Of a DNA stretch of 64,000 bases, positions 3,799-22,505 are shown one piece after another. The stretch is taken from NCBI GenBank assembly GCA_020831885.1, contig JAFIFU010000001.1:186001-250000 (forward strand), in the 5' to 3' direction. The DNA is from Ectothiorhodospiraceae bacterium (GTDB lineage: Bacteria > Pseudomonadota > Gammaproteobacteria > Nitrococcales > Aquisalimonadaceae). The notes beneath the pieces were generated by a model. The model ran no database searches, was not told the origin of the DNA, and was given only the letters and a program-made list of their open reading frames with translations. The position numbers and the translations under genes were made by a program. Position 1 is the stretch's first letter, and the number at the start of each line of letters is the position of its first letter.

Positions 3799-6027
3799 GT
3801 GCAAAGAGCAGCTCACGGTGGGAAGGAATCCCGGACAGCCAGCCAGGAGACGCTGGCCCGGCGTCTGCAAGCGCTGCATTTCTCGGAAACCGATGCCGGG
3901 CTGTTGCGGGAATTGCGGCAACACCTGGACAACGCCCGAATGGAGCGGTTTCTCGCGGGTTTTCGGGATCATCTGCTGGAGATACCCGGTGCCGCCCCCA
4001 TGCTGCGGTTCCCGCAGCATGGGGATCGTCTGCGACGCCAACAGAAACGTCATCTTCACACTCTCCTGGGCGGCCGCTATGGCGGGACCTACGCCCGCAG
4101 TCGCCAGCGGATCGGTGCCGCCCACCGCGAGCTGGGTCTGGACCCGGCCTGGCTCCCCACCGCCTACGGCTGCTACATGCAGGAGCTGCTCGAGCTTGTC
4201 AGGCCCTGTTACGCGGAGGCCCCAGGGCGTTATCAGGCCTTGTGGCGGGCGCTCGGCAAGATCGTCCTGCTGGACATGTCCCTGGTGCTGGAGGCTTTTG
4301 AGCCAGTGGACAGCCGTGCTATCCGGGAGCGGGAATCCCGGCTGCGCCAGGTCCAGCGGCTGGCCAGTATCGGAAGCTGGGAATGGGATCCCGGGGCCCG
4401 TTATCTACGCTTCTCCGCCGAGGCCGCCAGCCTGTTCGGTCTGCCGCCCAGCGCCGAACGGCTTGCCGCCCAGCGGGCGCTGGAACTGGTTCATACCGAA
4501 GACCGTGCCGGGCTGCTGGCGACGGTGGAACGGGCTCAGGACGAGGGCCTGCCCTTTCAGTTGATGCACAGGATCGGCCCGGACAGCCGCGGGCGTGTGC
4601 GTTATCTGAAGCACTATGCGGAGCCCGTACGGGAGGGCCGTGGCCGGCTGCTGGTTCAGGGAGCGGTACAGGACATCACGGATCAATACCTGGCCGAGCA
4701 ACAGCTCCGGAGGATGGCGCAGCACGACCCCCTGACCGGGCTGATGAACATGTCCGGTGCCGTTGGTGCTCTGGAGACCCGCCTGGCCGAAGCGCGGCAG
4801 CGGGGCCTGCCCCTGGCCATCCTGATGGTGGGGTTGGATCGCATGAAGCGTATCAATGACAGCCTGGGGCGTGACGTCGGTGACCGGTTGCTGCGACTGG
4901 CCGCACGGCGGTTGCAGCGGGCGTTCCCCGGGCATCTGGTGGCGCGGGTCGGTGGCGATGAGTTCCTGCTTGTGCCGCGCCGCTGTGTGGAGGCGCCGGA
5001 GGCCCTGGATGAGGCAGCGTCCCGCGCCGCGGCGCTGTTTGACGGTTCCGTCAGGATTGCGGGGCAGGAGATGCCGGTGAGCATCAGTGTCGGTGGTATC
5101 CAGGCGACTCCGGGTGATCGATCGGCGCGGGATCTGGTGCGCGGCGTAAACAGTGCACTGTACCGCGCCAAGTCGGTGGGTGGGCGTGCGTGGCGGCTGT
5201 TCGATCCGGCGCTGGACGCGGGGCGGGTCAGGGAGCTGGGCCTGGAGGCCCGGCTGCGTCGTGCCATCGCATGCGATGAATTCCACCTGTGCTACCAGCC
5301 CCAGTACGACATGCATCGTGGACAACTCGTCGGCCTCGAGGCATTGCTGCGGTGGGCGTCGCCGGAAGGGGTCCAGTTCCCCGATGCCTTTATCGGCGCA
5401 TTGGAGGAATCCGGCCTGATGGTGGCGGTGGGGCAACTGGTTCTGCGCCAGGCATGCCGCCAACTGGCGGCCTGGCAGCATGCCGGGATCCACGTGCCCC
5501 GGGTGGCGGTCAATGTATCGGCGCTGCAACTGGCGGATCCCGGGTTCCTGGATTTCGTGGCGGGCATCCTGGAGGAGACGGGGATTCCCCACGGGAGTCT
5601 GGAGCTGGAGCTCACCGAACACGCGGTGATCCGGTCGCCCGAGGAAGCTGGTCAGAGGCTGCGTGGGCTCAAGGCGCTTGGCATCCGGGTGACCATGGAT
5701 GATTTCGGCACCGGTTATTCTTCCCTGTCGTACCTGAAGCGGCTGCCGGTGGATCAGATCAAGGTGGACAAGTCCTTCGTCAGCGATCTTCCCGGGGATG
5801 AGGGTGGCGCCGCGCTGACCCGCGCCATCATCGCCATGGCCCATGGGCTGGGCTTGCAGGTGGTCGCGGAGGGCGTGGAGACCCGGGAGCAGCTCGCCTT
5901 TCTGGAAACCCAGGGTTGTGACATGGTTCAGGGGTTCCTGTTGGGCCGCCCCGTGCCGGCAGAGCAGGTTCCCGCGCTGGCACGCCGCATCGACCTCCGC
6001 CCGGGTGATGAGGTATCCCCGCCGTAG
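3799..6027 (+). CDS. Globin-coupled PAS-GGDEF-EAL cyclic-di-GMP enzyme
   Basis: A 742-residue cytosolic signalling protein. Domains in order are a protoglobin-type haem sensor (about 15-180) with the IGAAH....GL signature and candidate proximal His109; a PAS fold (about 195-315); a GGDEF domain with an intact VGGDEF motif (385-389); and an EAL domain with EALLRW (Glu514), ELELTE, MDDFGTGYSSL, VVAEGVET and QGFLLGRP, all intact. No RxxD inhibitory site precedes GGDEF. Both synthase and phosphodiesterase sites look active, with oxygen or another gas ligand likely setting the balance (inference). The GTG at 3799 is chosen because AGGGGA lies 6 nt before it; a longer TTG-start form from 3622 adds low-quality sequence. 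Confidence 0.9.
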   Translation: MQRAAHGGKESRTASQETLARRLQALHFSETDAGLLRELRQHLDNARMERFLAGFRDHLLEIPGAAPMLRFPQHGDRLRRQQKRHLHTLLGGRYGGTYARSRQRIGAAHRELGLDPAWLPTAYGCYMQELLELVRPCYAEAPGRYQALWRALGKIVLLDMSLVLEAFEPVDSRAIRERESRLRQVQRLASIGSWEWDPGARYLRFSAEAASLFGLPPSAERLAAQRALELVHTEDRAGLLATVERAQDEGLPFQLMHRIGPDSRGRVRYLKHYAEPVREGRGRLLVQGAVQDITDQYLAEQQLRRMAQHDPLTGLMNMSGAVGALETRLAEARQRGLPLAILMVGLDRMKRINDSLGRDVGDRLLRLAARRLQRAFPGHLVARVGGDEFLLVPRRCVEAPEALDEAASRAAALFDGSVRIAGQEMPVSISVGGIQATPGDRSARDLVRGVNSALYRAKSVGGRAWRLFDPALDAGRVRELGLEARLRRAIACDEFHLCYQPQYDMHRGQLVGLEALLRWASPEGVQFPDAFIGALEESGLMVAVGQLVLRQACRQLAAWQHAGIHVPRVAVNVSALQLADPGFLDFVAGILEETGIPHGSLELELTEHAVIRSPEEAGQRLRGLKALGIRVTMDDFGTGYSSLSYLKRLPVDQIKVDKSFVSDLPGDEGGAALTRAIIAMAHGLGLQVVAEGVETREQLAFLETQGCDMVQGFLLGRPVPAEQVPALARRIDLRPGDEVSPP

Positions 6028-6099
6028 GGCCGGCTCTGGTCAGTGGGGAACGGCTGTGGTGAACTGTGGGGTCACGCGAACAACGGAGCAAGCCGCGTC

Positions 6100-6966
6100 A
6101 TGTCACAACCACCTTGGATGCATCCCGATGTCAGGCGTGCCTTCGACCCCGAGCGCGTCGTGCAGGTGACGCCGCTGCTGCGCCGGATCACCGCCCCCAA
6201 TCCCGGCATGATGACCGGTCCGGGAACAAATACCTGGCTGGTGGGCGGTGACGAAGTGGCCGTGGTTGACCCGGGACCGGATGATCCCGCGCACATCACA
6301 CGGGTGGCACGGGCGGCGGAGGGGCGTATCCGCTGGATTCTGGTCACCCATACCCATCCGGATCATTCGCCTGGCAGCCGACGACTGGCGGAGTTGACCG
6401 GGGCGCCGGTGCTGGGGCACTGGATTCGCCTGCAGGGGATCAGCGATGAGGCGTTCCGCCCCGACGTGCCGCTGGCCGATGGCGACCGTATCCGGGCCGG
6501 CGGATTCACGCTCCGGGCCTTGCATACGCCCGGTCATGCAGCCAACCACCTGTGTTTCCTGCTGGAAGAGGAACGCATTCTGATCGCCGGGGACCAGGTC
6601 ATGGATCGGTCCACCGTGGTGATCACGCCGCCGGACGGCGATATGCAGGAGTATCTGGACTCCCTGCAGCGGCTCAAGACCCTGGGGCTTGAGGCCATTG
6701 CACCGGCCCATGGGCGGCTGCTGGGGAATCCGGACCGGTTGCTGCAGGACATCATCGATCACCGGCTGGAGCGGGAGGCCATGGTGGTGGAGGCGCTGGA
6801 GGCGGGTGAGCAGTATATCCCCGATATGGTGCGGCGGATCTACGTGGATGTGCCGCAGGCGCTGCATCGCGTGGCGGAGGGCTCCGTGTACGCGCATCTG
6901 CTCAAGCTGCGGGACGAGGGACGCGTGGTGGGCCGCGAACGGGAAGGGCCCTGGGCCCTGCCCTGA
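6100..6966 (+). CDS. Metallo-beta-lactamase-fold hydrolase of the LACTB2 type
   Basis: A 288-residue protein with the full MBL metal site: HTHPDH at 84-89, His146, Asp165 (AGDQVM) and His204 (APAHG). The last 70 residues look like the winged-helix domain found in LACTB2-like proteins. Mitochondrial LACTB2 is an endoribonuclease, while bacterial members are mostly uncharacterised, so RNase activity is only a possibility. The ATG at 6100 follows a GGAG site; a start at 6043 is in frame but has no good ribosome site. It lies 72 bp after the GGDEF-EAL gene and 14 bp before msrA, so co-transcription with msrA is likely. Confidence 0.85.
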   Translation: MSQPPWMHPDVRRAFDPERVVQVTPLLRRITAPNPGMMTGPGTNTWLVGGDEVAVVDPGPDDPAHITRVARAAEGRIRWILVTHTHPDHSPGSRRLAELTGAPVLGHWIRLQGISDEAFRPDVPLADGDRIRAGGFTLRALHTPGHAANHLCFLLEEERILIAGDQVMDRSTVVITPPDGDMQEYLDSLQRLKTLGLEAIAPAHGRLLGNPDRLLQDIIDHRLEREAMVVEALEAGEQYIPDMVRRIYVDVPQALHRVAEGSVYAHLLKLRDEGRVVGREREGPWALP

Positions 6967-8732: not shown

Positions 8733-9610
8733 GCGGGGCCGCCGCGACGCCGCTGCCTACCAGGCCCGGTGCAGCGCGGCTTGCGGAGCGGTTGGCGGGT
8801 TGTGGCCATGCCCTGGCGCTGACCGGGGCCGGCTGCAGCACTGACTCCGGGATACCGGACTATCGTGACCGCTGCGGCGCCTGGAAGCGCAAGCCACCGG
8901 TTCAGATCCGGGAGTTTCTTCGCAGTAGCCGTAACAGAAAGCGCTACTGGGCCCGCAGCATGCTGGGTTGGCCTCAGGTCGCCGGCGCCTGCCCGGGGGC
9001 TTCCCATCGTGCGCTGGCGGCGCTGGAAGCCCATGGCCTGTTGCGGCACCTGATCACCCAGAATGTGGATGGCCTGCATCAGCGGGCCGGAAGCCATGCG
9101 GTGACAGACCTGCACGGGCGGCTGGATCGCGTCTCCTGCCTGGACTGCGGTGCGCCGTGGCCGCGGCGGACTGTGCAGGGGTGGCTGGAGGACGCGAATC
9201 CGGACTGGCTGGTTCTGGAGCCGCGCAGGGCCCCGGATGGGGACGTGGATCTCGAGGGGGTGGACTTCGATGCGTTCCGTGAGCCCCATTGTCCGTCCTG
9301 CGGCGGTTTGCTGAAGCCGGATGTGGTTTTCTTCGGAGAGAACGTGGCCCCACCGGTGGTGGAGGACTGTTTCCGCAGGCTGCAACAGGCGGATGTGCTG
9401 CTGGTGGTGGGGTCTTCCCTGATGGTCTGGTCCGGATACCGTTTCGTGCGTGCGGCTGCAGCGCAGGGCAAACCGGTGCTGATCGTCAACCGCGGGCGGA
9501 CCCGTGGCGAACGGGAGGCCAGTCTGGTGGTGGACGGGGATTGCGCCGGCGTGCTCTCCGCCATGCTGACGTATCTGGGCGTGAACGCGGGTGAGGGGTT
9601 CCATGGCTGA
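8729..9610 (+). CDS. NAD-dependent protein deacylase, sirtuin class II type
   Basis: A 293-residue Sir2 enzyme that removes acyl groups from lysine using NAD. Visible motifs are [14 protein letters not shown] (33-46), QNVD (111-114), catalytic His129 in LHG, a four-Cys zinc site (Cys137, Cys140, Cys188, Cys191), KPDVVFFGE and VGSSLMV. The [11 protein letters not shown] segment matches the SIRT4-like class II group. It starts at a GTG that overlaps the LysR stop (GTGA) and ends 8 bp inside murI, so the three genes form a tightly coupled operon. SIRT4-like enzymes prefer unusual acyl groups, so deacetylation is not guaranteed. Confidence 0.92.
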
Positions 9611-10629: not shown

Positions 10630-12879
10630 TCAGTGTTCGTTTAGCAACAGCCGAACCCCGGCACCCGTCGTTTGGTGACGCACGGTGCCGATGATCCGGG
10701 CCTCACGGTATCCCAGTGCCTGGAGGGCATGGAGGCATGCCTCGGCGCGGTCCGCAGGCACGCCGGCCAGCAACCCGCCGGCTGTCTGTGGGTCGAACAA
10801 CAGCGGATAGGCCGGGTGTTCCATCGCCTTTTCCCGGTCGTGCAGCCAGGCTGAATTGCGTGTGTTCGCCTCGTGCAGGGAACTGAGCAGCCCGCTTCCG
10901 CTGGTTTCAAGGGCGCCATCAAGCCAGGGCAGCGCGTCCAGCCGGAGCTCTGCGGTCAGCCCTGTCTTCCGCGTCATCTCCAGCAGATGCCCCAGCAGGC
11001 CGAAGCCGGTGACGTCGGTGCAGGCGGTGGCACCGTGCCCCCGCAGGCATTGGGCAGCCAGCCGGCTGGACTGGCGCATGCAGTTCAGCGCCGCATCGAT
11101 CCATCGGCCCCGGGCCCGCAACTGCGCATGCGCCGCCAGCAGCGTGCCCGTTCCCAGCGGTTTGGTGAGAATGAGCGCATCGCCCGCGCCGAGCCCCTGC
11201 TTGCGCAGCAGGGCCTCCGGCCGGTCCTCTGCCAAACCGTTTACGGCAAAGCCCAGCGCCAGTTCCCGGCCTTCACCGCTGTGGCCGCCGATGAGGGCGC
11301 AATCCGCCTCGTTCAGCACCTCCAGTGCGCCACTCATCATCTGCAACAGCGTATCCGCGACCTTGTCCGGTGGACCATGGGGCACGGTGGCCACGGCACT
11401 TGCGGAATGGGGTTCGGCGCCCATGGCGTAGATGTCCCCAAGCGCATGGTTGGCCGTGATCTGGCCGAAGGTGAAGGGATCGTGGATGAAGGCACGGAAG
11501 AAGTCCACCGTCTGCAGCAGGAGTCGGTCCGGCGGCACCCGAAGCGCCGCGGCATCATCGCTTTCCGCCAAGGCGGCGATGACGCCGGAGCGCTGCACCG
11601 GCTTCAACTGGTGCAGCACGTACCGCAACGCATCCTCACCGACCTTGGCGCCGCAGCCACCGCAGCGCATCTCCTCTGGGTGCTCCCCGGGGCCTGATGC
11701 GCCTGCTGTCATGCGGCCCGGGACGGTGGGGTCGAAGCGGGCCATAAAACGCCGGTCGATGTGGTCCTTCCAGCGCCAGACCCACCGCCCGGCCAGCATC
11801 AAGCGGCCCCGGGACGCCACCGCATAACGGTCGCCGGTGCTGATCAGGGCAAGCCACTTCCGTTGTGGTCGGTATCGGCGGACCACCCGTCCCTGGATCA
11901 GCCGCCGCAGATTGTCCGCCAGGACCCGGCCCTGGCGCACCGCGAACACGCCGGCCTTCTCCCGGGGATGTCCCTCCATGCTGGCCACATCGCCCGCGGC
12001 GAATATCCGGGGGTCGGAGAGGGATTGCAGGGTGTCGGTGACGCGGATGAAACCGTGCGCATCCAGTTGCAATCCCGTTTGCCGCAGCCAGTCCGCACCA
12101 CCGGCATGGGTCACCCAGACGATTTCGTCGGCGGCCAGATGAAAGCCGTTGCCGGCCCGCAGACATCCGGACGACACCCGTTCCACCCGCGCCTGGCAGT
12201 GCAGGACAATGCCACGTTGTTGCAGGATCCGCCGGAAGTGCCGGCGGACGGCCGCGTTATGGCTTGGGAGGATGTCGGTTTCGGCACTGAACAGATGTAC
12301 TTCCAACTGGTCAGGGGCGTGCCCCCGGGTGATCAACTCCTGCCGCAAACGGTATTGCATGGCCAGGGCCAGCTCCACACCACCGGCCCCGGCGCCCACG
12401 ACGGCGATGCGAATCGGCCCGGTGTGTTGCTGTACGCGCTGCAACAGGGTCTGCCAGCTCTGGTTGAACCGATGGATGGGCTTGACCGGAATAACGTGTC
12501 GCGCGGCGCCCGGTACCTGGCTCACCCGGGGGGCGGAGCCGGTATTGATGGATGCCAGGTCGTAGGGGACCGGCGGGCGGCCGCGGCACAGGATGCTGCC
12601 GGCCTTCCGGTCCAGTCCCACCGCCTCGGCACGGTAGAACCTCGCGCCGGCGAACTCGGCCAGGCGGCTGAGATCGATGTGGACGTCGTCGTACGTGTAG
12701 TGGCCGGCAATGTAGCCGGGCAGCATGCCGGAATAGGGGGTGTGCGTATCCCGGCATATCAGGGTCAGGCGCACTCCGGGCATGGGCCGCATGCCGAAAG
12801 CGCGCAATACCTGAACGTGACTGTGGCCGCCGCCCACCAGCACGATGTCCTTTTCCACCGGATGATCGGACGCCTGCAT
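10630..12879 (-). CDS. selD: NADH-dehydrogenase-like oxidoreductase fused to selenide water dikinase
   Basis: A 749-residue fusion. Residues 1 to about 390 form an FAD/NAD(P) oxidoreductase of the Ndh-2 type, with VGGGHSHVQVL near the start, [14 protein letters not shown] as the second dinucleotide site, and FAAGDVASM. From about 400 to the end it is SelD, which makes selenophosphate from selenide and ATP. The key motif RCGGCGAK holds Cys409 and Lys412, equivalent to E. coli Cys17 and Lys20. The active site uses Cys, not Sec. Such fusions are known in other bacteria and are thought to couple redox chemistry to selenium supply (inference). tRNA-Sec lies 60 bp upstream. Confidence 0.95.
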   Translation of the reverse strand: MQASDHPVEKDIVLVGGGHSHVQVLRAFGMRPMPGVRLTLICRDTHTPYSGMLPGYIAGHYTYDDVHIDLSRLAEFAGARFYRAEAVGLDRKAGSILCRGRPPVPYDLASINTGSAPRVSQVPGAARHVIPVKPIHRFNQSWQTLLQRVQQHTGPIRIAVVGAGAGGVELALAMQYRLRQELITRGHAPDQLEVHLFSAETDILPSHNAAVRRHFRRILQQRGIVLHCQARVERVSSGCLRAGNGFHLAADEIVWVTHAGGADWLRQTGLQLDAHGFIRVTDTLQSLSDPRIFAAGDVASMEGHPREKAGVFAVRQGRVLADNLRRLIQGRVVRRYRPQRKWLALISTGDRYAVASRGRLMLAGRWVWRWKDHIDRRFMARFDPTVPGRMTAGASGPGEHPEEMRCGGCGAKVGEDALRYVLHQLKPVQRSGVIAALAESDDAAALRVPPDRLLLQTVDFFRAFIHDPFTFGQITANHALGDIYAMGAEPHSASAVATVPHGPPDKVADTLLQMMSGALEVLNEADCALIGGHSGEGRELALGFAVNGLAEDRPEALLRKQGLGAGDALILTKPLGTGTLLAAHAQLRARGRWIDAALNCMRQSSRLAAQCLRGHGATACTDVTGFGLLGHLLEMTRKTGLTAELRLDALPWLDGALETSGSGLLSSLHEANTRNSAWLHDREKAMEHPAYPLLFDPQTAGGLLAGVPADRAEACLHALQALGYREARIIGTVRHQTTGAGVRLLLNEH

Positions 12880-12939
12880 CGGGTGTCTAGGCCTCGTGTC
12901 TGCTCCTGGGCCCGTCCTGGCGGGGACAGGCGAACATGC

Positions 12940-13035
12940 TGGCGGAAGGGGGTGGGAGTCGAACCCACCAGACGCGCCTGGCGCGTCTCACCGGATTTGA
13001 AGTCCGGGCGCTCCACCGGGAAGCGATCCCCTTCC
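12940..13035 (-). tRNA. selC: tRNA-Sec (anticodon UCA)
   Basis: The minus-strand product is 96 nt including an encoded CCA. It has the 8-bp acceptor stem GGAAGGGG/CCCCTTCC, the anticodon loop ACTTCAAA with UCA, a long variable arm (GACGCGCC/GGCGCGTC) and the T arm GGTTCGACTCC. The long acceptor and variable arms and the UCA anticodon are diagnostic of bacterial selenocysteine tRNA. It lies between selB and the selD fusion, so it may be cut from the same transcript. No clear promoter of its own was seen. Confidence 0.97.
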
Positions 13036-13145
13036 ATGTCCGTGGCACCGTTGCTGCTGTTACTGATCTTTAAGCAGGTAAAGCCATGTCTCAGTGGTTT
13101 CCGTGCCTTGCCGTCCCGTCCGACGATGCGCCAGTGTAACGCGAT

Positions 13146-15041
13146 TCAGCGCAGGCCGCGCCGTTCGCCGTCGAAACGGGTGATGCCCAGGCGGTCCAGG
13201 TGCTCCAGGACCTGGATGGTCAGATTGCGGCCGATGCCGCTGCGGTCCCGGTAACCGGCCGCATCGAACAGCCTATCCGGGGATTCCTCGGCCAGTTCTC
13301 TGGCCAGATCCGCCAGCGTCTCCACAGTTTCTGGCAGAAAATAGCGGTTGGGCGCAACCCGTTCCAGATAGCCCAGGCGGCTCAGTGACTGCAGTCGCTC
13401 CATCAGCGCCTGGCGCTCCAGTCCCAGTTGATCGGCAAGCTCGCCGACCAGGGGCGGCCGCAGTCCGGCGCCGCGTAGTGCGTGGGTGACCGCCTCCAAC
13501 AGGGCCGCATCCGCGGTTTCCAGGCGTGGCCGGTGATCGGGCAGGCGCAGGTTGAAGCCCTGCCGCACCAGGAGCGACTTCTCCAGCAGTGCCCGGATCG
13601 CCGCCCGGACCAGGGCGCCGGGGAGCGTCCGTCCCAGACGCTCGGCCAGAGCGGATTCGCCAGGGCCGACACTGGCGGGGTCCAGCGCGTGCCAGCGGGC
13701 TACCGCGTTCAGCACCTCCCTCTGGACCTCCTGCCAGCGGTTTTCCGTGATCAGCAACGGCCCCTCCCGGGTGGCAATCCGCAAGCCGGGTGTTGCGTCG
13801 GCGAGCGCCGCTGCCTGTTCCGGCGTGAGGTTCCTGGTGCGGACGAAGGCCGGCAGAAAAATGCCCGTTGGGCTGAGTTCCAGCAGCGAGCCAAGCGCCC
13901 GGGCGTGGTCCGCGTCGGCCAGTGCCTCCAGTAGGGACAGCCGCTCCGGTCGACCGCGCCCGCGACGGGGAGGGGTCGGATCGATCACCTTGCCGCCGCC
14001 CAGGGTCCGCCAGGCGGACTGATCCCGGATGATGAAACGGTCACCATGCAGGCCATGGATCGGCCGCTCCAGCACCAGCTGTGCCAGGCCGCGCTCACCG
14101 ACGCCCAGGCTGTGGCGGCCCAGCAGTGCAACCCTTGCGGTGACATCAGCCGCACCCAGGTGCAGATGGACCGGTGTCCAGTGTTTCAGGGCGCGCTGCT
14201 CGGACGGCAGCAGCCCAAGCTCCACGTCCAGTCGCCGGGTGACCAGTTCCGCGGGCTCGGCCACGACCCAGTCGCCGCGACGGATCGCCTCCCGGTCCAA
14301 CCGGCTGCCGGACAGGTTCAGGGCGCAGCGTTCGCCGGCGACCACCTGGTCCCGCCGCTGTCCCTGTCCTCGCAAATCCCGCACGCGGGCGGGTATGCCG
14401 CCGGGGACCACGCGCAGATGCTCGTCCTTTCGGACGCTACCGTCGAATACCGTGCCGGTGACCACAAGACCCGCCCCATCCACGGTGAAGCAGCGGTCCA
14501 CCGCCAGGCGGAAATTGCCGTCGGCCTTCCTCCAGGGGAGCGTTTCGCTGCACCGGGTCAGATGCCGTTTCAGTGCATCCATCCCGGCTCCGGTCTGCGC
14601 GGAGACAGGAAAAACAGGCGCACCCGTCAGGCAGGTGCCTTCCACCAGCTCCGGGATCCCTTCCGTCACCTGCAGCAACCGTTCCCCACTGACCCGATCC
14701 GTCTTGCTCACCACCACGGCGCCATGACGCAGGCCGAGCAGATGGAGTATCGCCAGATGCTCCCGGGTCTGGGGCATGGGCCCGTCATCGGCGGCGATCA
14801 CCAGCAGCACGAAATCCACGGCGGCCACACCGGCCAGCATGTTACGGATGAAGCGTTCGTGTCCCGGGACGTCCACGAAGCCGATGCGCCGCAGCGACGG
14901 GCCGTCCATGTAGGCGAATCCCAGGTCGATGGTCAGCCCGCGACGCTTCTCTTCCTCCGTCCGATCCGTGTCGACGCCTGTCAGCGCCCGCACCAGCGCG
15001 GTCTTGCCGTGATCCACATGGCCTGCGGTTGCCACGATCAT
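13146..15041 (-). CDS. selB: Selenocysteine-specific elongation factor
   Basis: A 631-residue GTPase that carries Sec-tRNA-Sec to the ribosome at UGA codons next to a SECIS hairpin. GTP-binding motifs are GHVDHGKT (7-14), [14 protein letters not shown] and VSKTD. EF-Tu-like domains II and III follow, and the C-terminal third is a series of winged helices that in known SelB bind the SECIS RNA. The ATG at 15041 overlaps the selA stop as ATGA. Length is close to E. coli SelB (614). It is the expected partner of selC and of the two UGA-containing genes upstream. Confidence 0.96.
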
Positions 15042-16420
15042 GGTGCCAAGGGCTCCGTGAACTGCGCCCGGAACGTCTTCTCGTCTTCCAGGCAGCGCAG
15101 ATCCAGCAGCACCGCACCACTCCTGATGCGGCCGATCACGGGGACCGGGCGTCGGCGGAGGGTTTCCGCCAGGCTCAGCGCCGACGTGGCTGCCGGGCGC
15201 AGGCGCAGGGCGACGCTGGGCAGCAGGTCCACCGGCAGCGACCCACTCCCTATCTGGCTCTGCACGGAAATCACATCCACCCGCCCGGCGGCACCCAGCC
15301 AGTGGGCGAGCACCGGTTGCAGCCGTTCCGCCAGCGTCCGGATCTCGTCGGTGCCCCGCGTCAGCAGCCGCAGTGCCGGTACACGCTCCGCCAGGTGGTC
15401 CGGATCGGCACACAGGCGCAGCACCGCCTCCAGGGCCGCCAGGGTAAGCTTGTCGCAGCGCATGGCGCGCTTCATCGGGTTCCGCCGGATGCGGCCGATC
15501 AGATCCGCACGGCCGGCGATGATGCCCGCCTGTGGCCCTCCCAGCAGTTTGTCCCCGCTGAAGGTGACCAGGTCGGCGCCACGGGTGAGGGTGTCCATCG
15601 GGGTGGGCTCCGCCGGCAGGCCGAAGCGGGTCAGGTCGGCGAGGGAGCCGCTCCCGAGATCCACCAGAAACGGCACGCCCTGCTTCCGGCATAAATCGGC
15701 CAGGGCGGATTCATCCGCCTCGGCGGTGAATCCCTGGACCTGGTAGTTGCTGGTGTGTGCCTTGAGGACCAGGGCGGGCTTCACCGTGTCCATGGCCTCG
15801 GCGAAGTCATGGACGTGGGTGCGGTTGGTGGTGCCCACTTCCTGCAGCCGGCAGCCCGCGCGGCGCATAATGTCCGGTAGCCGGAATGAGCCGCCGATCT
15901 CGATCAGCTCACCCCGGGAGACCAGCACACGGCGTCGCAGGGCCAGGCTGTTCAGGGCCAGCAGGACGGCGGCGGCGTTGTTGTTGACCACGGTTGCCGC
16001 CTCCGCACCGGTCAGCCGGCACAGCCAGCGCTCCACGTGGACATCCCGGTCGCCGCGCCTGCCCCGTTCCAGATCGTATTCCAGGTTCGAGGCTCCGGCG
16101 GCGATCCGGGTCATCGCGGCGATTGCTTCCGGGGGCAGGGGGGCGCGGCCGAGATTGGTATGCAGCACGGTGCCGGTGAGATTGAACACCGGCTTCAGGG
16201 ATGGGGATATCTGTGCCTGCAAGGCGGTGGTGATGCCATCTGTGATGGCGGTATCGGTGCAGGGGCGCTGGCCGCGGCGGCACTCTTCCAGGGTTCTGCG
16301 CACGGCCTCCACGGTCAGGGGGCGGCCATGGGTCTGCAGGAGCGCCGCCACCACCGGCCAGGCCAGTATACGGTCCACCGACGGCGGCCGGGGATACGTC
16401 GACGGGTTGCGGGAGCTCAT
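15038..16420 (-). CDS. selA: L-seryl-tRNA(Sec) selenium transferase
   Basis: A 460-residue PLP enzyme that converts Ser-tRNA-Sec to Sec-tRNA-Sec using selenophosphate. The PLP lysine is Lys291 in SGDKLLGGPQAG, near E. coli Lys295. NLTGTVLHTNLGRAP, EYDLERGRRGDR and VNNNAAAVLL match conserved SelA segments. The N-terminal tRNA-binding region (about 1-70) is present, so this is the long bacterial form. It begins 132 bp after the UGSC gene in the same direction and overlaps selB by 4 bp. A 7-bp stem-loop lies in the gap before it. Confidence 0.97.
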   Translation of the reverse strand: MSSRNPSTYPRPPSVDRILAWPVVAALLQTHGRPLTVEAVRRTLEECRRGQRPCTDTAITDGITTALQAQISPSLKPVFNLTGTVLHTNLGRAPLPPEAIAAMTRIAAGASNLEYDLERGRRGDRDVHVERWLCRLTGAEAATVVNNNAAAVLLALNSLALRRRVLVSRGELIEIGGSFRLPDIMRRAGCRLQEVGTTNRTHVHDFAEAMDTVKPALVLKAHTSNYQVQGFTAEADESALADLCRKQGVPFLVDLGSGSLADLTRFGLPAEPTPMDTLTRGADLVTFSGDKLLGGPQAGIIAGRADLIGRIRRNPMKRAMRCDKLTLAALEAVLRLCADPDHLAERVPALRLLTRGTDEIRTLAERLQPVLAHWLGAAGRVDVISVQSQIGSGSLPVDLLPSVALRLRPAATSALSLAETLRRRPVPVIGRIRSGAVLLDLRCLEDEKTFRAQFTEPLAP

Positions 16421-16552: not shown

Positions 16553-17077
16553 TCAGGTGGCGCGCAGGGCACCCAGGATGGCATCAAGCGCGTCATCGGC
16601 CAACTGCCGCATCTCCGCGTCGGTGCGGTCCTGAATCGGATGGGCGACAAACACCATCGCCGGATCGAAACCCAGCGAACGGCTCTGCATCTCTGCGGCC
16701 TGGACGAACTCCGTTGATGCAACGCCAACTCCGGGTATGCCTCGACCTTCCAGGTCTGCGATGTCATGCATACAGCACGACGTGCAGGAGCCTCAGTCGG
16801 CCAGACCTTCCACCACCAGATCGCATTCCGCGGCAATCTGCTGGCGCAGGGCCGTGGGGGCAACCCGGGTGAACGTGGGTTTCCGGTAGCGCCGTACCTG
16901 AATGCCCCGGGACTGCAGCAAGGCGTCGACACGGTCTAGGAACACGTCGCCGCGGGCCTTGGAGATGTCCAGCAGGCCGACGGTGAGCCCATCCAGGCTC
17001 GCCGGTCGCGCCAGCCGCTCCCGGGCCGCCGGGGACCGTTCCGACGTCGGGTCCAGCAGGTGTAGATCTGCGTTCAT
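16553..17077 (-). CDS. UGSC-motif selenoprotein (in-frame UGA read as Sec95)
   Basis: A 174-residue protein if the TGA at 16793-16795 is read as selenocysteine. The frame before (94 residues, ending VVEGLAD) and after (GSCTSCCMHDIADLEGRG) runs on without a shift, giving Sec-Gly-Ser-Cys. UGSC proteins were described earlier from ocean metagenome surveys of selenoproteins, and their function is unknown. A SECIS-type hairpin follows the UGA (16756-16787). The gene ends in a normal TGA at 16553-16555. Its ATG overlaps the stop of the thioredoxin-fusion gene (ATGA). The Sec and neighbouring cysteines point to a thiol/selenol redox role (inference). Confidence 0.88.
16756..16787 (-). promoter_or_regulatory. 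bSECIS hairpin of the UGSC gene
   Basis: Counting from the base after UGA, nt 6-10 pair with 32 and 34-37, and nt 12-18 (GUCGUGC) pair with 24-30 (GCAUGAC) including one G-U pair. The apical loop is UGUAU at 19-23, with G as its second base. The position, 18 nt from UGA, and the loop G fit the published bacterial SECIS rules. Folding was done by eye. Confidence 0.7.
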
Positions 17078-18540
17078 CCAGTGATCTCCCTGGTAACGGG
17101 CGATGAGCCGACCGGGCCGGAGGCGGCCCAGCCGGCGATCACCGCGGAAAACAGACCGGCGGTGCCGCCGGCCCGAACGATCAGCAACCCCCCGGGGCGG
17201 AACTTGGGAATCCTCTGGCCAGCGGCGCTGGCCGGCAGGCCTTCCGCGATGCCGTCAGCCCCCGCCAGCAGTTCGTCGCCCGGCATGAGCAGTAAACGTT
17301 CCAGTTCTTCCCGTAGCCGCTGCCGCGACCAGCCGGCCTCGCTGAACACGCGATGATGCTCCGGCGATACCACGAGCGTGGCGTCGCCGGCCATGGCCAT
17401 CTTGGTGTTGTCCACCGCGCGCAGCGAGTTGGCGAAGCTGCGCGCCAGGGACTCCGGTGTGCGGGATTTCTGGTCCACGATGCCCTGCACACCCTCGCCG
17501 GCAAACAGCGTGACGGTGGACGCCTCGGGCGGAAAGCCCCGCTCCACGGACAGGGAGCCCCAGTCGCTGTCTTCTGCTTCCGCGAAACAGAACGTGTACT
17601 TGCCGGGGTTGCCCAGGGTGGCCCGGTCGATCTCGCCCGGGCGGCCGCCCCCCACATTGCGGATAACCAGTTGCAGTGCCCGGCCGATGGTTGCGTTGGC
17701 GCGGTTGCCCTGGCCCAGGGCATTGACCCCGGAGTTCATGCCGATGGCCCGGGTGATTGGCCCGTTCACGATCACCATCGGCCCGGCGAACATGGTGGTG
17801 CAAAGCAGGCCGTGCATGCCGAATTCCTCGGTCAGGGCCGCTTCCACGGCGGCGATGACCACAGGCAGGTATTCCGGTTTGCAGCCGGCCATCACGGCGT
17901 TGATGGCGACTTTCTCGACGGTGCAGGGAGCCAGATCCGGGGGTACCTCCCCCAGATTCTCGGATGGTGCGCGATGCGTGCCCTGGAGCATGCGGAGGAC
18001 CCGCTCCCGGGTTGGCGGCACAACCGGAAGACCGTCCGTCCAGCCCCGCTCGTAGCAGGCCTCCATCACGTCCTCGGCATCACCGAGATCGATCTCCCGC
18101 GAACGCAGCAGACTCCGGTCAAAGCGGGCGGCGAGCTTGTCCGCCATCCCCGGATCCTGGGTCTTCGAGCCGCAGCCAGGCCGCGTCTCCGGCAGCTCGG
18201 CGCCCAACGGTTGCTGGCCACTCAGTGTCTGCCAGTCGCCGCGATGCCATCCGTAGGTGCGTCCCACCTCCCGACCGTTCTCCACCCGGATCAGCGTGGG
18301 CACGATTTCCACGTCCAACTGCCAGGACGTTTCCAGGCTCGCATCATGAACGACCTTGGGCAGGCCGTTGCCGTAAGCGGGGTCGTCCTGACTGTACACC
18401 GTGAGTGGCAGCGGTCCGTCCGCCAGCTCGTGCAGCACGGGCTCGATCAGTGTGCAGGTGGGGCAATCGCGCTTGGCGATGACGATGAGGCCGTCGGGCA
18501 GGGCGGGCACGGGCGAATCCTCAGTGACAGGAGAAGACAT
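17074..18540 (-). CDS. Thioredoxin-fold domain fused to a large UGSC-associated domain
   Basis: A 488-residue protein of unknown function. Residues 1 to about 110 look thioredoxin-like: RDCPTCTLIEP near residue 26 gives the CxxC motif, and IVPTLI gives the cis-Pro loop. A linker with RPGCGSKTQ (a Cys-Gly-Ser) follows. The remaining 340 residues have the motifs TDGLPVVPPT, INAVMAGCKPEYLPVV, VIVNGPI, NSGVNALGQGNRANATIGRA and PGKYTFCFAE. They are Gly-rich and may bind a substrate or cofactor, but no enzyme class is evident. The gene overlaps the UGSC gene by ATGA and lies 90 bp after the GrdB-like gene, so the three probably act together. ATG 18540 is preferred over a TTG just upstream. Confidence 0.8.
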   Translation of the reverse strand: MSSPVTEDSPVPALPDGLIVIAKRDCPTCTLIEPVLHELADGPLPLTVYSQDDPAYGNGLPKVVHDASLETSWQLDVEIVPTLIRVENGREVGRTYGWHRGDWQTLSGQQPLGAELPETRPGCGSKTQDPGMADKLAARFDRSLLRSREIDLGDAEDVMEACYERGWTDGLPVVPPTRERVLRMLQGTHRAPSENLGEVPPDLAPCTVEKVAINAVMAGCKPEYLPVVIAAVEAALTEEFGMHGLLCTTMFAGPMVIVNGPITRAIGMNSGVNALGQGNRANATIGRALQLVIRNVGGGRPGEIDRATLGNPGKYTFCFAEAEDSDWGSLSVERGFPPEASTVTLFAGEGVQGIVDQKSRTPESLARSFANSLRAVDNTKMAMAGDATLVVSPEHHRVFSEAGWSRQRLREELERLLLMPGDELLAGADGIAEGLPASAAGQRIPKFRPGGLLIVRAGGTAGLFSAVIAGWAASGPVGSSPVTREITG

Positions 18541-18629: not shown

Positions 18630-19844
18630 TCATAGACCGAGTCGCACCCGTTGCTCAGCGGGGATCAACTGGCCCCCGGCCACCGCGCGAAGTATCTTGT
18701 CGTCCGAGGCCATTGCCGTGGCCCGCAGGCGGATCAGCACCTGGGCCGCGGTGGTTGTGTCCCAGAACCAGTGCTGCAATTGACGACTGGAAGGCCGTCC
18801 CCCCATGGACGCGGCCTCCAGATACTGCGCCTTCAGGTCGTCCGCCGCCAGCCGCATGGCGATGGCCAGGCGCTGTTCCGGCATCGGGTTCTCCGGCACC
18901 GTGCCGCTGGCCATGGCACAGAGAAATTCGGTGATGCGCTCGGCAGGCAAGGCGCTGTTACCGACCGTGGTTCGCCCGCGGCTTGCCACCGCTTGCCGGT
19001 AAACAGGGGCGATGGCCTCCTGCTCGGCCGCAAGGGCATCCCGCAGGGAGGCCGGGTTCCTGGATCCGTTCGGTCCCGCCGGCAGCGCTGGCGGTTGCCA
19101 GGCCGGGTCATCGGCGAAGCCGGCGGCCTGCCGTGGGAAGTCCATGATCAAACCAGGCTCCCGAACCTGCTCCAGCAGTCCTAACGCCTGGCTTAGCACC
19201 AGCCGCTGGAACGCCCCGTCACCGGGTTCACCCAGAGGGCGACCCAGCTCGAAAGGCACCCACAGCGTACGGGGCGGCCGGATCCGCTCGCTGTGTGGCC
19301 GGAAAAGACTGATGCAGATCGTGGCGATGCCCGCTGACTCCAGGTAATGCCCCAGCGCGCTCACGGCGCGCGTGCAATGGGGTCAGACGGGGAGCAGGAC
19401 GGCTGCCGTCACCCCTTGATCGCGGAAGTCCCGGACCAGTTCCTCGGCGTGGGGTTGCATCAGTTCCGGGTCGGTTGCGCCCATGAAGCTGTAATGGGTG
19501 TCCGCGGCATTCCCGATCAGGTCCTGTTCCGCGAGTTCCCGCAGCCGCTGCCGTGGAAGCATGACTTCCACGTCCTGTTGGAAGCCGGTCCGATCGAAGT
19601 TGACCGAAACGTGCGTGATCAGCAGGTCTTCGTCCCCGGTCTCTTTCGCAATACTGCGGAAGTCTTTCGCATTCGGTTTGAAGGGCGGTTCCCCCCGCAC
19701 GCTCAAGCCCGCCGTGGAAACCAATGCGACGGTGTGCTGGAGCAAGGGCCGGGGCGGTACCAGGGCCGTGGACCCGAATGTCGGGCATGACAGCGCGAGC
19801 ATGTTCTCCCGCAGCACCGGGGGCAGATCGTCCAGTCGGGCCAT
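18630..19844 (-). CDS. GrdB-like selenoprotein (in-frame UGA read as Sec154)
   Basis: A 404-residue protein of the glycine/sarcosine/betaine/D-proline reductase selenoprotein B family if the TGA at 19383-19385 is decoded as Sec. The frame is uninterrupted on both sides: residues before end AAVLLPV, and the Sec is followed by PHCT, giving the UxxCT motif of the family. VALVSTAGL and SFMG are further family-like motifs. Known members cleave a C-N bond reductively through a Sec-bound intermediate; the substrate here is unknown. A GGAGG site precedes the ATG. A SECIS hairpin begins right after the UGA, and the gene ends in an ordinary TGA. Confidence 0.88.
19350..19382 (-). promoter_or_regulatory. 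bSECIS hairpin of the GrdB-like gene
   Basis: Immediately after UGA, nt 1-5 (CCCCA) pair with 29-33 (UGGGG), nt 8 pairs with 28, and nt 11-15 (CGCGC) pair with 23-27 (GCGCG). Unpaired UU and CA bulges lie on the 5' side. The apical loop is GCCGUGA (16-22) with G first. Distance and loop composition fit bacterial SECIS rules. Folding was done by eye. Confidence 0.7.
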
Positions 19845-22429: not shown

Positions 22430-22505
22430 TGGTGGGTCGTGTAGGATTCGAACCTACGACCAGCGGATTAAAAGTCCGATGCTCTACCAACTGAGCTAAC
22501 GACCC
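22430..22505 (-). tRNA. tRNA-Lys (anticodon UUU)
   Basis: A 76-nt minus-strand tRNA with acceptor stem GGGTCGT/ACGACCC, D arm GCTCAGTTGGTAGAGC, anticodon loop CTTTTAA (UUU), T arm GTAGGTTCGAATCCTAC and an encoded CCA. All arms pair fully. Confidence 0.98.

Follow-up and report, generated by a model that had tools for sequence, protein, structure and literature searches.

The locus reported here is closest to two described systems: the glycine, sarcosine and betaine reductases (GrdB-GrdE, TrxA-TrxB), the selenocysteine (Sec) of which resides in a UxxC(xxC) protein, and D-proline reductase (PrdA/PrdB), a two-component Sec enzyme with a UxxC subunit. In Clostridia, the grd operon carries trxA/trxB to reduce GrdA (PMC10880999), GrdE-type pro-proteins possess two conserved cysteines for processing, and GrdB/GrdE-like pairs were proposed to act on new substrates, e.g., fluoroacetate (PMC10838667). 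The 2008 GOS survey described a "UGSC-containing protein", for which a Trx-like fold and a redox role were guessed, and included a UGSC fusion to "Unknown_1" (PMC2398784). Here, a gene is described which joins a thioredoxin-fold domain to a large domain, referred to as the TDGLP domain, and the neighbour of which is a member of the UGSC family (PF24696, NF041046); the fusion gene encodes the partner and not the UGSC protein, and its product yielded no PF24696 match in Pfam. With a probability of roughly 0.6, the fusion gene is suggested to encode a thioredoxin together with the substrate-side subunit of a two-protein, Sec-dependent reductase. Given a near-constant TDGLP partner and an own or borrowed thioredoxin system, UGSC would no longer be an orphan selenoprotein but part of a defined two-component enzyme that is open to testing, and the unit suggests glycine-reductase-type selenol chemistry well outside the anaerobic amino-acid fermenters. 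In the literature searched, the coverage of which was partial, neither the fusion with thioredoxin nor the trx operons nor the obligate TDGLP/UGSC pairing was found to be described; the "Unknown_1" of the GOS survey may be the large domain described here.

Organization of the locus

The window, i.e., the whole stretch of 64,000 nucleotides that was analysed, carries the following features:

17074..18540, minus strand: thioredoxin-TDGLP fusion gene, an ORF of 488 aa from ATG, with 82 relatives of the same architecture
18211..18513, minus strand: thioredoxin-fold domain, residues about 10-110
18454-18465, minus strand: CPTC of the thioredoxin-fold domain, residues 26-29
18166..18180, minus strand: linker PGCGS, residues 121-125, with the Cys123 codon at 18172-18174
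17077..18093, minus strand: large TDGLP domain, residues about 150-488 (~340 residues)
18010..18039, minus strand: motif TDGLPVVPPT, residues 168-177
17881..17883, minus strand: Cys220 (AGC-x-PE), candidate active-site thiol
17587..17589, minus strand: Cys318 (YTFCFAE), absent from UGSC-fused copies
16553..17077, minus strand: UGSC-family selenoprotein gene (PF24696, E 1e-43; NF041046, E 7e-46)
16793-16795, minus strand: Sec codon UGA of the UGSC gene (UGSCTSC), the sole internal UGA of the frame
15038..16420, minus strand: selA, identified by translation, first gene of a selA-selB-tRNASec-selD block
12940..13035, minus strand: tRNA-Sec with anticodon TCA (ARAGORN; Rfam RF01852, 80 bits)

The stop codon TGA of the fusion gene (17074-17076) overlaps the ATG of the UGSC gene (17075-17077), forming an ATGA, and just 3' of the UGSC UGA a hairpin is located, the inner pairs of which are kept in 74 distinct relatives. 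Directly downstream of two selenoprotein genes, a compact Sec block (10630-16420, minus strand) comprises selA, selB, tRNA-Sec and a NADH-dehydrogenase-like/SelD fusion, hence UGA is very probably read as selenocysteine in this host. In many beta- and gammaproteobacterial loci, selA homologues likewise come after UGSC. The second selenoprotein gene is PrdB-like (18630-19844, minus strand; TIGR04483, E 6e-27) and contains an in-frame UGA at 19383-19385 (UPHC), with standard gene calling splitting it into two ORFs. A PrdA/GrdE partner gene for it was not found in its own genome, and it was rejected as a core part of the system, as just one other locus has such a gene, at 30%. A sub-threshold Rfam match to "Plastid-ycf2" at 22432-22505 is an artefact antisense to tRNA-Lys.

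The fusion protein and its linker cysteine

The fusion protein consists of a thioredoxin fold and a large domain of so-far unnamed function, by which the earlier note's description of a CPTC thioredoxin-like domain joined to a domain of about 340 residues and unknown function was confirmed. Its N-terminal domain gave a weak match to thioredoxin profiles (HMM, E 0.02-0.3); within the AlphaFold model of the full protein (pLDDT 93.0) it adopts a clear thioredoxin fold (VIA-align to 2fa4_A: Z 9.9, rmsd 2.5, 86 residues), in which Pro81 (VPT) occupies the usual cis-Pro position. C26, T28, C29 and P81 are invariant among the fusion proteins. For the large domain, and also for its relatives, no sequence relative was identified in Pfam, NCBIfam or the PDB, and a PDB search likewise found no homologues of the complete fusion protein or of UGSC. 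Comparison of 62 diverse members identified D169, G170, P172, V216, A218, P226, G260, R287, N295 and E321 as invariant throughout the family and C220, located within GCKPEYLPVV (residues 219-228), as nearly so (60/62), with N214 also belonging to the conserved polar residues. Judged by the conservation of D169, G170, P172, R287, N295, E321 and C220, the large domain looks like an enzyme. In-frame TGAs reported for two of its matches (L085 and L087), considered as a possible Sec in the large domain, fall outside the real gene.

Between both domains lies the sequence RPGCGSK (residues 120-126), the CGS of which had been taken as an echo of the UGSC motif. When the window's fusion protein was aligned with its 82 relatives, C26, C29, G122, C123 and C220 were found to be kept in all 83 sequences, which is more than chance. 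Conservation of the linker, proposed earlier as a check, therefore holds for its cysteine, with P121 being present in 82 of the 83 sequences, but not for the complete motif, as G124 (80/83) and S125 (72/83) vary. Furthermore, the linker lacks the second Cys of UxxC, the fusion protein gives no match with the UGSC profile (hhalign E 0.15, at a site away from the linker), and an alignment of family members revealed no counterpart of the linker in stand-alone TDGLP proteins. Homology of the linker CGS to UGSC was consequently rejected. As G122 and C123 are invariant while G124 and S125 are not, it is the cysteine that matters and not the likeness to UGSC, and Cys123 is probably functional.

Pairing of TDGLP and UGSC across genomes

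Scanning bacterial and archaeal genomes yielded more than 500 relatives, 80 of which were kept, and a phylum search contributed two more fusions. In all 82 fusion loci, which belong to several phyla, the UGSC gene directly follows the fusion gene, its product containing Sec in nearly all cases and Cys in one. The ATGA overlap recurs in 52 of the about 76 fusion loci with an assignable start. Within one class, a profile search detected TDGLP domains in 28 of 289 genomes, many of them without thioredoxin and with up to seven per genome, and searching the same 289 genomes for UGSC (PF24696) identified exactly the same 28; the p-value for this co-occurrence (Fisher, 1e-39) is uncorrected for shared ancestry, so that the true significance is lower. 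Taken together with natural UGSC-TDGLP fusions, these findings bear out the coupling of both genes that had been read from the overlap in the window.

Three arrangements recur, namely (i) thioredoxin-TDGLP followed by UGSC, (ii) one or two copies of TDGLP with UGSC and (iii) UGSC and TDGLP within a single protein, after which a second TDGLP mostly follows. The latter include six alphaproteobacterial single-chain selenoproteins of the type UGSC(Sec)-TDGLP (L119, L120, L123, L125, L131 and L132), in which the fused copy is devoid of Cys318. Cys replaces Sec (CGSC) in haloarchaea, Arthrobacter, Roseovarius and Variovorax. For a few TDGLP genes (L133, L137 and L138), no UGSC was found nearby; an Acidobacteria locus (L065) holds two UGSC genes (5658-6167 and 9137-9397), only one of them directly after the fusion gene. 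A quick tree unites the thioredoxin fusions in a single clade (SH-aLRT 97) with members in Pseudomonadota, Actinomycetota, Chloroflexota, Myxococcota and Hydrogenedentota, which suggests that fusion occurred once and was followed by transfer.

A plasmid of Vibrio europaeus (L145, 4407-6092) encodes a UGSC-TDGLP fusion of 561 aa (UGSC match, E 2.5e-5), the motif of which has neither Sec nor Cys and the gene of which adjoins aconitase X, DUF126 and enolase genes. These features hint at a non-redox offshoot; with both residues lost, not every family member can be a Sec/thiol reductase.

Probable electron supply and gene neighbourhoods

Stand-alone TDGLP/UGSC pairs are often found beside thioredoxin system genes, with the gene order being trxB-trxA-TDGLP-UGSC in Arthrobacter and TDGLP-UGSC-trxB in Roseovarius, trxB lying near the pair in Variovorax and a TrxR-like flavoprotein being encoded beside other pairs. 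Within the flanking DNA covered, a TrxR-like gene was identified in 0 of the 82 fusion loci as compared to 12 of 32 other regions, a comparison made between flanks of unequal length and among non-independent relatives. Considering this, the fused thioredoxin most plausibly corresponds to a thioredoxin which, in other systems, has a gene of its own.

The thioredoxin fold and the Sec within a UxxC motif would also be expected of a general thiol or peroxide defence, in which UGSC, kept reduced by the thioredoxin domain, would act on peroxides or disulfides and the large domain would serve as a scaffold or sensor; the fold and role guessed for UGSC in the 2008 survey (PMC2398784) agree with this. 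However, the invariant polar residues of the large domain (D169, N214, C220, R287, N295 and E321) are typical of an active site, many TDGLP paralogues are present per genome, and genes of a catabolic kind lie in the neighbourhood (TRAP transporters, CoA transferases and ligases, amidohydrolases, LysR regulators), which renders a defence function unlikely.

Fold of the large domain

As thioredoxins dominated the structure search carried out with the full model, the large domain was folded separately, resulting in a confident AlphaFold model (pLDDT 93.5, pTM 0.92). This structure prediction had been recommended in the earlier note, by which a confident assignment of the domain to a known unrelated enzyme was regarded as a refutation; such an assignment was not found, and the fold is regarded here as unassigned. 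In Foldseek and VIA searches no fold stood out, whereby a missing match is no proof of a new fold, and the best matches were class I fumarases (Foldseek E 4e-4; VIA Z 4.4 over 193 residues). This overall resemblance is what a hydro-lyase, or another non-redox relative of class I fumarase, would be reasoned from, with UGSC and thioredoxin merely serving in regulation or repair, and the Vibrio fusion next to aconitase X and enolase genes would fit. Yet the resemblance is weak (TM-score 0.28, rmsd 6.0), almost every partner UGSC contains Sec and, unlike in class I fumarase, the three conserved cysteines ligating the 4Fe-4S cluster are missing from TDGLP, only C220 and C318 (54/62) being kept family-wide. 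A lyase function is consequently judged quite improbable.

Relation to glycine reductase and proposed reaction

Profile comparison indicates that UGSC is a distant homologue of the GrdB Sec domain. The alignment, obtained with one divergent GrdB sequence, extends over 122 columns and places the UGSC motif of one protein on that of the other (hhalign E 8.5e-6; controls 0.15-0.75), both proteins carry UxxCxxC, and a second signal is a weak HMM match (E 0.13). With PrdB-like proteins, UGSC aligns around the motif only (E 0.017-0.024), and, differing in this from D-proline reductase, no PrdA-like gene was found. That the large domain has diverged from GrdE/PrdA and forms a pyruvoyl group at Cys, as operon logic, the UGSC-GrdB relation and two conserved cysteines as in GrdE-type pro-proteins (PMC10838667) might imply, is highly improbable, as Pfam and NCBIfam gave no match to PF09338/PrdA, similarity to the one GrdE sequence compared was not detectable (hhalign E 0.11) and a search of the own genome yielded no PF09338 match, although control genomes gave none either.

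Shared with glycine reductase are, next to the related Sec protein, an own thioredoxin system within the operon (trxB-trxA in Arthrobacter, the fused thioredoxin in the window) and several, presumably substrate-specific, copies per genome. Differences concern the partner, which is without detectable GrdE homology and to which thioredoxin is fused, the neighbourhoods read, which hold neither GrdA nor GrdC/D, and the hosts, which include haloarchaea and many proteobacteria. As UGSC is related to GrdB while the large domain resembles neither GrdE nor PF09338, TDGLP/UGSC is, by analogy, suggested to work like a glycine/proline-type reductase, but it cannot be filed as a member.

For the two-protein, Sec-dependent reductase favoured here, in which both proteins would form a complex, the following reaction model may be suggested. 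Electrons would pass from NADPH via thioredoxin reductase to the fused thioredoxin, the CPTC of which, probably via linker Cys123, would re-reduce the selenenyl-sulfide of UGSC. A small catabolic substrate would be bound and activated by the TDGLP domain near Cys220; the UGSC selenol would then attack this substrate, and one of its bonds would be cleaved or reduced. Different substrates would be served by the paralogous TDGLP/UGSC pairs, the neighbours of which include transport, CoA and hydrolase genes. On a wider scale, it is tentatively proposed that TDGLP/UGSC pairs could constitute an unrecognised, widespread class of Sec-dependent reductive enzymes, the catalytic fold of which would be new and the many paralogues of which would each act on a different substrate, occurring in bacteria and, in their Cys form, in haloarchaea. 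Just upstream of the Arthrobacter trxB-trxA-TDGLP-UGSC genes, a gene annotated as phosphosulfolactate synthase is located (L141, 3722-4510), which is a possible substrate clue pointing to sulfonate or coenzyme M-like chemistry.
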